Positions 806-3,011 of a stretch of DNA of 20,994 bases are shown one piece after another. The stretch is from a virus. The stretch covers positions 1 through 20,994 of IMG/VR virus record IMGVR_UViG_3300031973_001096; one strand, 5' to 3'. Made by a program: the position numbers and the translations under genes. Position 1 is the first letter of the stretch. Each line of letters opens with the position of its first letter. The notes under the pieces are model-generated. The model was given only the letters and a program-made list of their open reading frames with translations. It was not told where the DNA came from and did not search any database.

Positions 806-1027
806 ATGCTACCAAGCAAACCCGGCCACAGGCTCTCTGAGTCAGGCCTCAGTGATTACAAGGCATTCGTGGCGCATGTCCAGAAATGGCAATGCACCTG
901 CAGCCCGGTCAAGCGCTGCGAGCGGTGCCGCCACCCAGGAAACCCGATCAACCTGCAAAACAGGTCGGATGCCTGGGAGCGGGCCGGCTCAACGGAAGCG
1001 TTCGATGCCATCAAGGGGATGATTTGA
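806..1027 (+). CDS. Small Cys-rich protein with a possible zinc knuckle
   Basis: A 73-residue unknown protein. It carries four cysteines in a C-x1-C-x5-C-x2-C arrangement (about residues 30-41, CTCSPVKRCERC), followed by basic residues and a helical tail ending AFDAIKGMI. The cysteine spacing would suit a single bound zinc ion, with RCERCRH giving a basic, possibly nucleic-acid-facing patch; that is inference. The start is placed at ATG 806 because AAGGAG lies 6 nt before it. An in-frame GTG at 791 overlapping the previous TGA (GTGA) is possible and would add five residues. It is the last gene of the rightward operon and its stop codon overlaps the end of Rz1 on the opposite strand. Confidence 0.7.
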   Translation: MLPSKPGHRLSESGLSDYKAFVAHVQKWQCTCSPVKRCERCRHPGNPINLQNRSDAWERAGSTEAFDAIKGMI

Positions 1028-1265
1028 GCGCTGCCGCCCGGCACTTATGGTACTGCCCGGCGACCTCGGCCAGTTTGAGCGTGGTCGCACCAAAGCTCGG
1101 ATCAGTCAGCGGAGCCAGCTCAGGGCAACTTGCTATCACTAGCGGGCTGAGGCTTGCCGGTAATGGCGGAGTTGAGGACGCGCAGGCTGTCATCATCATG
1201 GCGACAGTCACGGTAAACAACGCGCTCCTGTATTTTGGTCTGTAGCTGCTGGCGGACTGTGACAT
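1011..1265 (-). CDS. Rz1-like spanin, outer-membrane lipoprotein subunit
   Basis: This 84-residue protein is the o-spanin. A basic N-region (RPKYR) precedes a hydrophobic stretch and a lipobox MTAC with lipidated Cys at residue 28, leaving a mature protein of about 57 residues. Ala at +2 fits outer-membrane sorting. The mature part begins Pro-rich (STPPLPASLSPL), as Rz1 proteins do, and ends with LKLAEVAGQYHKCRAAA, a tail common in Rz1 proteins of proteobacterial phages. It starts inside Rz in another frame and runs past the Rz stop, the usual overlapping spanin arrangement. A TTG start at residue 16, with AGGAG before it, would remove the positive residues before the signal, so the ATG is preferred. 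With Rz it would bridge and fuse inner and outer membranes after peptidoglycan is cut. Confidence 0.88.
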   Translation of the reverse strand: MSQSASSYRPKYRSALFTVTVAMMMTACASSTPPLPASLSPLVIASCPELAPLTDPSFGATTLKLAEVAGQYHKCRAAALKSSP

Positions 1266-1458
1266 TTTGCACCTCGATTTTACTGATGGCCTCCGCGGCG
1301 CCGCGCTGGGCGGCTTTCTCGACCTGGGCTAGCTTGAGCGCTTCGGCATCGCGCCGGCCGGCTTCCAGATCCTCGCCGTCGCTGCGGCCCTTGACGTAGG
1401 CGCTACCGGTGGCCACGACGACAGCCAGCAGGGCGGCTAGTAGGATATAGGGGCTCAT
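1120..1458 (-). CDS. Rz-like spanin, inner-membrane subunit
   Basis: A 112-residue protein with an N-terminal transmembrane anchor (about residues 4-22, ILLAALLAVVVATGSAYV), no cleavage site, and a long charged helix (about 30-75) likely to form the periplasmic coiled coil of an i-spanin. The C-terminal third is variable and carries YRDCRHDDDSLRVLN, a segment familiar in Rz proteins. The start overlaps the stop of the lysozyme gene as ATGA, which couples the two. Rz1 begins inside this gene in a different frame. The order lysozyme, Rz, Rz1 is the standard end of a Gram-negative phage lysis cassette, and length and topology are normal for the family. Confidence 0.88.
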   Translation of the reverse strand: MSPYILLAALLAVVVATGSAYVKGRSDGEDLEAGRRDAEALKLAQVEKAAQRGAAEAISKIEVQNVTVRQQLQTKIQERVVYRDCRHDDDSLRVLNSAITGKPQPASDSKLP

Positions 1459-2165
1459 GCTCTGCCCTCACATAGCCGGCGCTCGGCAGCTCGCCGTCTT
1501 ACTAGGCCATTTACCACGCTGCCGCCAGCCATGTTCCAGCGTTCAATTGCTGCGCATGCGCCAGGCCAATCCCCGGCATTGGCACGTCTGGCCGCCGTAG
1601 AGCCGCAGAAACCATTGACGCCTATGTTGTAGGCCAGGGACGTAAACGCGGCCGCCTGATGGTCTTTCATAGGCACGCTGACGCATTTCCGCACCCCGGC
1701 GTAGTATTGCCCAAGTTCTTCCTCTAGCCACTGCTGGCACGTGGCGTCCGATACTGTCCTGCCGGGGATAGCGCGCGCACCGGTCTGGCCGTAACAGATC
1801 GTCGGGATGCCCACGATATCGTTGTAGGTTGTATTCCTCTTCCCTTCCCAGCCCGCTACGAAACTAACGGCAATCAGCAAAGCACCAGCGGCGCCGGCTG
1901 CAACTTTCCCTCCAGTCGTGGCCGCGCCAGACTGCTTGTTAATGCGACGCTTTGGCTTATCATCCAGCAGGCTAGGCTGTGCCACAACCCGTGCGACGGC
2001 AGCGCCAAACGATATCACCGCAGCCACCAGCACAAGGACGGGAGCACTACCGGTGGCGTATAGGTTGAACCCCACTTCCACGCCTGACGCCAGCGCTGCC
2101 AGCAGGGATAGGCGTACGCTCCAGAGTTTCGGCCACTTGCGCTTCCAATCATCGATTAGTTTCAT
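1455..2165 (-). CDS. SAR-type lysozyme (GH24) with an extra N-terminal holin-like two-TM domain
   Basis: The C-terminal portion (about residues 85-236) is a phage lysozyme that cleaves the glycan strands of peptidoglycan. It has the T4-lysozyme catalytic spacing: Glu107 (WEG), Asp116 and Thr122, i.e. E-x8-D-x5-T, with the ICYGQT block following. Just before the catalytic Glu is a weakly hydrophobic Gly/Ala-rich span (87-105) typical of a signal-anchor-release (SAR) domain, as in phage 21 and P1 lysozymes. Unusually, about 75 residues precede it: an amphipathic start (MKLIDDWKRKWPKLWSVRLS) and two hydrophobic spans (about 18-37 and 42-62), resembling the small holin-like DUF7940 proteins normally encoded separately. 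A basic linker KPKRRINK follows, which would lie in the cytoplasm. No internal ATG, GTG or TTG with an SD was found at the junction. The gene overlaps the upstream stop by 17 nt. Confidence 0.88.
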   Translation of the reverse strand: MKLIDDWKRKWPKLWSVRLSLLAALASGVEVGFNLYATGSAPVLVLVAAVISFGAAVARVVAQPSLLDDKPKRRINKQSGAATTGGKVAAGAAGALLIAVSFVAGWEGKRNTTYNDIVGIPTICYGQTGARAIPGRTVSDATCQQWLEEELGQYYAGVRKCVSVPMKDHQAAAFTSLAYNIGVNGFCGSTAARRANAGDWPGACAAIERWNMAGGSVVNGLVRRRAAERRLCEGRA

Positions 2166-2523
2166 TTGCGGCGCCTTTCGTCACGTGTGAGGGGGAGCCA
2201 GCGCTCGTCGCGCTTGCGGTTAACTTGCCGGATGTGTAGCTCCATAATGCGCTCCCTATAACACCGACCACAATCAGCACGACGGCGTTGAGTACATACT
2301 GCAGCGTGTTGCGAAACATCGCGCTGCGGTTTTCCATTTGGCGTATCATTGCCTCGTGATACCGACGGTGGCCCTCTGCGTCCCCGCCGGGGAAGGCGTC
2401 TGCGCAGTTATTGCTCGCCTTTTCCAGGGCGCCGACCTTCTGGGCTAGCTCTGCGATGTCCTGGCGTGTTCTTTCCTGGTTGGTCAGAAACAGCAGCCAC
2501 GGCGGCTCTTTTTCGTCGCTCAT
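2149..2523 (-). CDS. Single-TM lysis-cassette protein, candidate holin or antiholin
   Basis: A 124-residue protein with a charged helical N-terminal half (about 15-72; ERTRQDIAELAQKVGALEKA, then HRRYHEAMIRQMENR), one clear transmembrane span (about 77-97, YVLNAVVLIVVGVIGSALW) and a polar Ser/Thr-rich tail. It lies immediately upstream of the lysozyme gene, the usual holin position, and small phage proteins with an HRxYHE helix before a TM are often seen there. That makes a holin or holin regulator plausible but unproven; a single TM with a long cytoplasmic helix is not a classical class I or II holin. It starts by ATGA overlap with the 163-residue gene and has AAGG 8 nt upstream. Confidence 0.75.
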   Translation of the reverse strand: MSDEKEPPWLLFLTNQERTRQDIAELAQKVGALEKASNNCADAFPGGDAEGHRRYHEAMIRQMENRSAMFRNTLQYVLNAVVLIVVGVIGSALWSYTSGKLTASATSAGSPSHVTKGAANETNR

Positions 2524-2620
2524 AGTTTCGCCTTAGCCACACCAGCAGACCATACGCGAAAAATAGGCCCCAGATCATCCAGGCCATGAGCGTCAGCGCC
2601 AGCCATGTCTCGTCGGTCAT
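2408..2620 (-). CDS. Nested 70-residue single-TM protein, possible holin
   Basis: This frame overlaps the last 101 nt of the 163-residue gene and the first 116 nt of the 124-residue gene, yet its content looks like a real membrane protein. The N-terminus MTDETWLALTLMAWMIWG... gives one strong hydrophobic helix (about 5-29) followed by a very basic stop-transfer segment LRRNYERRKR, and a polar Arg/Gly/Pro-rich tail. GAGGG lies about 9-10 nt before the ATG. By contrast the overlapping tail of the 163-residue protein is low in hydrophobics and featureless. A Trp-rich TM with a basic flank directly in front of lysozyme could be a holin. The overlap lowers confidence; the tail in particular may only reflect constraint from the other frame. 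Confidence 0.5.
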   Translation of the reverse strand: MTDETWLALTLMAWMIWGLFFAYGLLVWLRRNYERRKRAAVAAVSDQPGKNTPGHRRASPEGRRPGKGEQ

Positions 2621-3011
2621 CGTCTGTCACCCTCAGCATGCGCACAGCTTGCCACGCCCACAGCGCCATGATGACGGCCGTATATAGAGGCGGACTTTCC
2701 AAATCGACGCCGGCATACCAAAGGCCGTAGAAAAACGTCGTTGCCGCGATGGCCAGTATGTTTATGCGCATGATGGCCATCAGAAACGATGATGCACCAG
2801 AAACGGCGCCTAACATATAGATACAGACGCAGGCTAGTACATCTGCTAGCACTGCGGTGCCGAAATACACATGACCATCATCTGTAGAGATCAACAGCCG
2901 GTGAACAGCCTGGAACCCGAGCACCGCCACCACCGCTGGCAGCCTGTTGGGCAGCACCATATTGCGTGCTACACACAGCACGCTGACCAGCAGCATGGCG
3001 GCGCTCATCAT
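2520..3011 (-). CDS. Multipass membrane protein of the lysis region
   Basis: A 163-residue protein with four or five hydrophobic spans (about 3-20, 24-41, 50-72, 82-100 and 108-126) and a hydrophilic C-terminal tail from about 127. I do not recognise a family. Position between the fibre-tip gene and the lysozyme suggests a lysis-associated role (holin, antiholin) or an exclusion function, both inference. The ATGATG start has no SD, only an A-rich run, but it overlaps the TGA of the 23-residue peptide gene, so it probably depends on reinitiation. Its last 100 nt are shared with the nested 70-residue frame. Its TGA overlaps the ATG of the 124-residue gene. Confidence 0.7.
   Translation of the reverse strand: MMSAAMLLVSVLCVARNMVLPNRLPAVVAVLGFQAVHRLLISTDDGHVYFGTAVLADVLACVCIYMLGAVSGASSFLMAIMRINILAIAATTFFYGLWYAGVDLESPPLYTAVIMALWAWQAVRMLRVTDDDRRDMAGADAHGLDDLGPIFRVWSAGVAKAKL

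Follow-up and report, generated by a model that had tools for sequence, protein, structure and literature searches.

Here, we describe a lysis gene in which a holin-family membrane hairpin and an R21-type SAR lysozyme are encoded in one reading frame, an architecture that recurs in other loci and is a real though uncommon lysis design, of which the copy studied here is itself a candidate. The gene lies in the window, by which we mean the whole stretch of DNA analysed, a virus record of 20,994 bases that carries a P22-like portal (phrog_156) and terminase. Its frame, domains and catalytic triad can be read directly, as can the two-gene layout of its relatives, the one-base difference from the nearest of them and the recurrence of the fusion elsewhere. 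No paper describing a fusion of DUF7940 to a SAR lysozyme turned up in our search of the open, non-subscription literature. The prevailing view of SAR endolysins is that they require a free, short N-terminus for membrane exit, and a conserved family with a two-TM holin-like hairpin before the SAR helix offers a direct test of that rule. Lysis by such fusions may dispense with a separate holin for the enzyme; they illustrate the repeated merging of overlapping lysis genes and make a natural single-gene lysis module available for study.

Sequence and domains of the fused gene

The fused gene is a single ATG-started frame of 236 amino acids on the minus strand (2165-1455; ORF list and translation). 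The other two minus-strand frames across this interval hold 9 and 11 stops, and the plus strand there is full of stops. A first-pass annotation of this DNA had proposed one frame joining hairpin, linker, SAR span and lysozyme; its coordinates were right, it did not state the minus strand, and the frame is indeed open, with Pfam and PHROG in agreement. The elements that it listed, two hydrophobic spans, the linker KPKRRINK, a SAR-like span and the residues E107-D116-T122, are all present. The features of the gene are as follows:

1455-2165, minus strand: ORF of 236 amino acids with DUF7940 hairpin, basic linker, SAR-like helix and GH24 lysozyme (ORF, Pfam, PHROG)
2174-2179, minus strand: Shine-Dalgarno-like GAAAGG, 8 nt upstream of the ATG (sequence inspection)
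1977-2162, minus strand: DUF7940 domain, residues 2-63, with predicted helices 15-38 and 43-62 (Pfam, PHROG holin phrog_1356, model)
2055-2114, minus strand: TM1, residues 18-37, weakly hydrophobic (GRAVY 1.1), containing Glu30 (sequence, alignment)
1980-2042, minus strand: TM2, residues 42-62 (sequence)
1905-1979, minus strand: predicted cytoplasmic linker, residues 63-87, QPSLLDDKPKRRINKQSGAATTGGK, a low-confidence coil in the model (sequence, model)
1851-1904, minus strand: SAR-like helix, residues 88-105, Gly/Ala/Ser-rich (sequence, R21 alignment, model)
1482-1853, minus strand: Phage_lysozyme (GH24), residues 105-228, with E107, D116 and T122 (Pfam, R21 alignment, structure match)

Pfam assigns residues 2-63 to DUF7940 (PF25612; E 4.4e-11, 43.6 bits, the cut-off being 27) and residues 105-228 to Phage_lysozyme (PF00959; E 1.2e-40, over the cut-off), while PHROG matches residues 1-78 to the holin phrog_1356 (E 3e-8) and gives an endolysin match to phrog_7 (E 5e-57). 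DUF7940/phrog_1356 as a rule has a gene to itself, some 70 codons long and immediately upstream of that for the lysis enzyme, whereas here it shares the lysozyme frame with no stop between. The linker contains six basic residues. As in SAR endolysins, the span 88-105 is weakly hydrophobic, 61% Gly/Ala/Ser and placed immediately ahead of the catalytic domain.

By sequence, the closest relative of solved structure is R21 of phage 21 (PDB 3hde), to which window residues 77-232 align (E 2e-25), with E107-x8-D116-x5-T122 falling on the R21 triad. R21 and DLP12 RrrD (4zpu) share with the window protein the weakly hydrophobic helix, the E-x8-D-x5-T triad and the GH24 fold. R21, however, starts with its SAR helix, whereas in the window protein this helix is not at the extreme N-terminus, being preceded by 87 residues that include the two TM spans of the hairpin and the basic linker. 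An AlphaFold model built on 41 aligned sequences (pLDDT 84) predicts two hairpin helices (15-38 and 43-62), a disordered linker and the lysozyme, and the PDB entries that match its fold best are those of DLP12 endolysin and of full-length R21, among them chain 3hde_C at 1.1 A rmsd; an earlier model on 15 sequences (pLDDT 56) was set aside. The lysozyme frame contains no ATG, GTG or TTG from residue 62 up to the SAR helix, so that, as sequenced, the SAR lysozyme would be obtainable only as a fusion, barring a rare start such as the ATT at residue 75.

The surrounding lysis cassette

The fused gene is flanked by further small genes on the same strand:

1120-1458, minus strand: Rz-like i-spanin overlapping the end of the lysozyme ORF (phrog_1152, E 1.6e-9)
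1011-1265, minus strand: Rz1-like lipoprotein overlapping Rz in another frame, with a lipobox-like MTAC (phrog_2425, E 1e-6; phrog_456, E 0.002)
2149-2523, minus strand: 124-aa protein, hydrophilic towards the N-terminus and with a single TM at the C-terminus, a candidate for a holin or an accessory role (weak 'hemolysin' PHROG match only)
2408-2620, minus strand: 70-aa protein with a single TM at the N-terminus, a lysis candidate of no family (ORF, Pfam/PHROG)
2520-3011, minus strand: 163-aa multi-TM protein, candidate holin (phrog_15451, function unknown, E 4e-4)

The two downstream genes (1011-1458) form a two-component Rz/Rz1 cassette, and the upstream trio (2149-3011) consists of overlapping small membrane ORFs nearly without family matches, each a candidate holin or antiholin. 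Given this arrangement, the fused protein supplies the enzyme in what is otherwise a normal Gram-negative lysis cassette and, with a possible holin among the upstream ORFs, need not be the sole membrane disruptor. The adjoining Rz/Rz1 pair had escaped the first-pass annotation, as had the two-gene rule among relatives and the one-base distance from it, both described below. We also considered the upstream one-TM coiled-coil proteins as Mu-type releasins, a candidacy that we dropped since a profile search gave no DUF2730 match near the window gene or near its fused relatives. Phages with related coat proteins carried only unrelated or separate-gene lysis modules.

Two-gene relatives and the one-base junction

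The first-pass annotation held that small DUF7940-like membrane proteins are usually separate genes, and in the relatives the two-gene layout is indeed the rule: in most, DUF7940 and lysozyme are neighbouring genes in different frames that overlap by a few bases. A similar DUF7940 occurs in only 2 of 50,697 phage records, Pseudomonas phage Touem01 and Sinorhizobium phage phiM6, each time as a separate gene overlapping a lysozyme gene. In IMG/VR and bacterial genomes, 32 lysozyme frames (a few of them duplicate records) adjoin a DUF7940 in a separate frame. No fused DUF7940 was found among 399 genomes of one order, and Sulfitobacter (Rhodobacterales) keeps DUF7940 and lysozyme as two genes. Long DUF7940 frames in three loci (L097, L100 and L114) were examined as further fusions and hold no fused enzyme. 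DUF7940 is also found before T4-like and GH19-like enzymes, types that we read from the sequences, and this placement before unrelated lysis enzymes fits a putative holin-like role.

The nearest relative of the window is the two-gene locus L087, whose hairpin is 70% identical. Alignment of the DNA shows the window to be one base shorter than L087 exactly at the 8-nt stop/start overlap of the latter, whereby both frames are merged:

1956-1964, minus strand: junction, residues 68-70, aligned with the L087 stop/start overlap (DNA alignment)

The catalytic Glu is preceded by 37 residues in the free L087 enzyme and by 38 in the window, counted from the junction to E107. The window fusion thus depends on a single base in one virus contig, and is either a very small recent evolutionary event or a one-base consensus indel. 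Were it the latter, the phage would really possess overlapping genes for a holin of the DUF7940 family and for an ordinary SAR lysozyme, with the contig off by a single base. That L087, the closest DUF7940 relative, has separate frames that differ by one base at this very place speaks for such an error, as does the two-gene state of the other near kin (L001, L088, L089 and L090), and contig searches found no near-identical contig carrying the window fusion. On the other hand, comparison with relatives of its other genes, which covered about 9.9 kb of coding sequence, revealed no further frameshift, and the same architecture is real and stable in other loci; apparent frame changes near 15.6 kb proved to be antisense matches. 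Because no other frameshift is seen and fusions occur naturally, we favour a real fusion, which we think is about three to four times likelier than a consensus error, a figure that is a judgement, and we place the error on the unlikely side, though by no means beyond consideration.

Recurrence and independent origins of the fusion

The fusion recurs: leaving aside the window and its own copies, DUF7940 and SAR lysozyme are fused in 25 loci. The second fusion to be identified, L119, came from a phylum-wide genome sample and is 38% identical to the window protein over nearly its full length. Relatives of L119 are found full length in one frame on 18 IMG/VR contigs (59-100% identical), and three more of 199 genomes of its family have DUF7940 and lysozyme in one frame. 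Fusions also lie on plasmids of Tritonibacter mobilis and Thioclava (alphaproteobacterial order Rhodobacterales), two of them in complete plasmid records; we use the name Rhodobacterales for this whole fusion family on the strength of its named members and of sequence kinship. Pfam recognizes both DUF7940 and Phage_lysozyme in most scanned fusions, two falling just below the DUF7940 cut-off. Within the family, dN is far below dS in hairpin and enzyme alike, and the linker evolves faster; both parts are thus under purifying selection. Many identical homologues described as ordinary endolysins, the case that the first-pass annotation had set against itself, did not come to light, and some homologues are annotated simply 'lysozyme'.

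The window fusion does not descend from this family. In a tree of hairpin plus enzyme it groups with the two-gene loci L001, L087 and L089, and a single clade of all fusions is rejected by the AU test (p-AU 0.003), which likewise rules out the window as a member of the Rhodobacterales fusion clade. If the window copy is real, the fusion therefore arose at least twice. The prophage fusions of Rhodobacterales (Thioclava XBA80116.1, annotated 'lysozyme', and the Tritonibacter mobilis plasmid) share with the window the order of DUF7940, linker, SAR-like helix and lysozyme in about 240 amino acids, and differ from it in their separate origin, in a conserved SGA linker motif, in the mostly lost TM1 Glu and, in some, in lying beside a u-spanin-like gene. 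This Glu (window residue 30) is conserved in most free-standing DUF7940 proteins, in the window and in the Thioclava fusions, and is replaced in most other Rhodobacterales fusions, where the hairpin may serve another purpose.

Translational fusion of holin and endolysin is already known in nature from Clostridium sporogenes, where the TpeE type occurs in six genomes (PMC9527704). Unlike the window protein, it has an unrelated single-TM holin of the TpeE family, belongs to a Gram-positive host and has an endolysin not described as SAR (PMC9527704).

Topology and mechanism of lysis

The charge distribution of the fusion, read by the positive-inside rule, places the enzyme outside the membrane, as a SAR enzyme requires, with N-terminus and linker on the inner side, in accord with the first-pass annotation, which had both ends of the hairpin in the cytoplasm. 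Its further proposal, an enzyme that remains tethered to the membrane after SAR release, fares less well, for the cytoplasmic linker would then need to carry its six basic residues through the bilayer while the hairpin stays. Of its overall reading, then, a recurring fusion of a holin-family hairpin to an R21-type SAR lysozyme stands, and tethered release as worded there is not supported.

In phage Mu, basic residues ahead of the SAR domain of the endolysin gp22 keep it in the membrane until a second protein, the releasin gp25, acts, and the addition of basic residues at the N-terminus is reported to lock SAR domains (PMC9239132). Gp22 differs from the window protein in having no fused hairpin, and the window region and the fused relatives differ in turn from Mu in having no DUF2730 match. 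Because the six-basic-residue linker must cross the bilayer, and because basic residues lock the SAR domain in Mu (PMC9239132), we favour a locked SAR endolysin: the DUF7940 and SAR endolysin genes would have merged into one whose product is a membrane-locked enzyme freed by a membrane lesion, a reading to which we give an even chance. We infer the topology, production of the protein, locking by the hairpin and trigger of lysis as follows. Loss of the frame change at the stop/start overlap would have made one gene of the DUF7940 gene and the overlapping SAR endolysin gene. The product would have three TM segments, with an N-in hairpin, a cytoplasmic basic linker, the SAR helix and the lysozyme folded outside. 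Ordinary SAR endolysins are slowly and spontaneously released from the membrane; here, hairpin and basic linker would hold the SAR helix in the membrane with the enzyme off and so prevent such release. Once the fused hairpins, a small membrane protein encoded just upstream, or both had opened or depolarised the membrane, linker and SAR helix would leave the bilayer and the enzyme would refold to an R21-like active form, whereupon Rz/Rz1 would finally disrupt the outer membrane.

The hairpin might instead act as a built-in pinholin, still oligomerising and depolarising the membrane, so that the polypeptide triggers its own SAR release. PHROGs do annotate DUF7940 as holin, the domain precedes unrelated lysis enzymes, and the window hairpin has changed little from that of L087, with Glu30 kept. 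Yet the linker of the enzyme would still have to cross the membrane, other candidate holins are encoded upstream, the holin activity of DUF7940 is putative, and replacement of the TM1 Glu in most of the older fusions suggests relaxed holin function there. We consider this explanation unlikely.

A conserved motif in the Rhodobacterales linker

Release of a membrane-locked enzyme could also be achieved by cutting the linker on the cytoplasmic side, which would free a normal SAR endolysin; in Rhodobacterales the agent might be the host prepilin peptidase, acting at an SG-A site. Every fused SAR linker of this family contains GA just before the SAR helix, in a motif [DEN]..(S/R/G)GA that is mostly D-x-S-G-A, and GA is kept throughout although the linker evolves fastest; it also appears where DUF7940 has given way to another one-TM module (L206, L209 and L220). 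The motif resembles the site of Flp pilins (type IVb prepilins) of the same host family (KDESGA, ADQRGA) and is rare before other TM segments, with a background of 10 in 293, three of those pilin-like. A cut after the Gly would leave an enzyme about as long as the free-standing relatives, whose starts mostly lie 26 residues ahead of the Glu, and an A24 peptidase was found in 6 of 6 hosts checked. Such peptidases are, however, near universal (12 of 14 controls), and while the substrates of prepilin peptidase have Gly-Ala before a hydrophobic helix, as this family does, they also have a Glu at +5, where the fusions carry Arg/Lys or another residue. The site moreover coincides with an ancestral start codon, which many members have as GTG or ATG and which offers an alternative origin of the motif; an obligatory internal start codon there was rejected, the codon being ATC, GTT or GCC in others. 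The window itself has only KQSGAAT, perhaps by chance, and the titles and abstracts from our literature search do not treat prepilin peptidase acting on endolysins. The SG-A motif thus makes cleavage a speculative suggestion, and as an explanation of the fusion we hold it to be improbable. Its boldest form, in which holin hairpins were joined to SAR endolysins more than once during phage evolution, each hairpin locking one enzyme in the membrane, and the Rhodobacterales linker mimics the pilin-processing site, so that the host prepilin peptidase releases the endolysin and joins the lysis timer, would be a long shot.

The near-invariant D-x-S-G-A-like motif is seen in the linkers of L119, L130-L148, L206-L210, L220, L223 and L224. 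In L206, L148, L209 and L220, other N-terminal one-TM modules stand in frame with the same SAR lysozyme lineage, so swaps of the hairpin may be common. Reading frames some 260-340 aa long in L211, L212, L214 and L215, in which a DUF7940-like hairpin is followed by a further hydrophobic segment, a Pro/Ala-rich linker and a lysozyme without SAR helix, represent another membrane-anchored lysozyme layout. Finally, a short protein, with a lipobox at its N-terminal end and a hydrophobic stretch towards its C-terminus, is encoded directly after the fused gene in L131 (3729-4109), L138 (3708-4112) and L142 (3726-4103), and is likely a unimolecular spanin, judging from its match to phrog_30566 and a weak Rz-like match.
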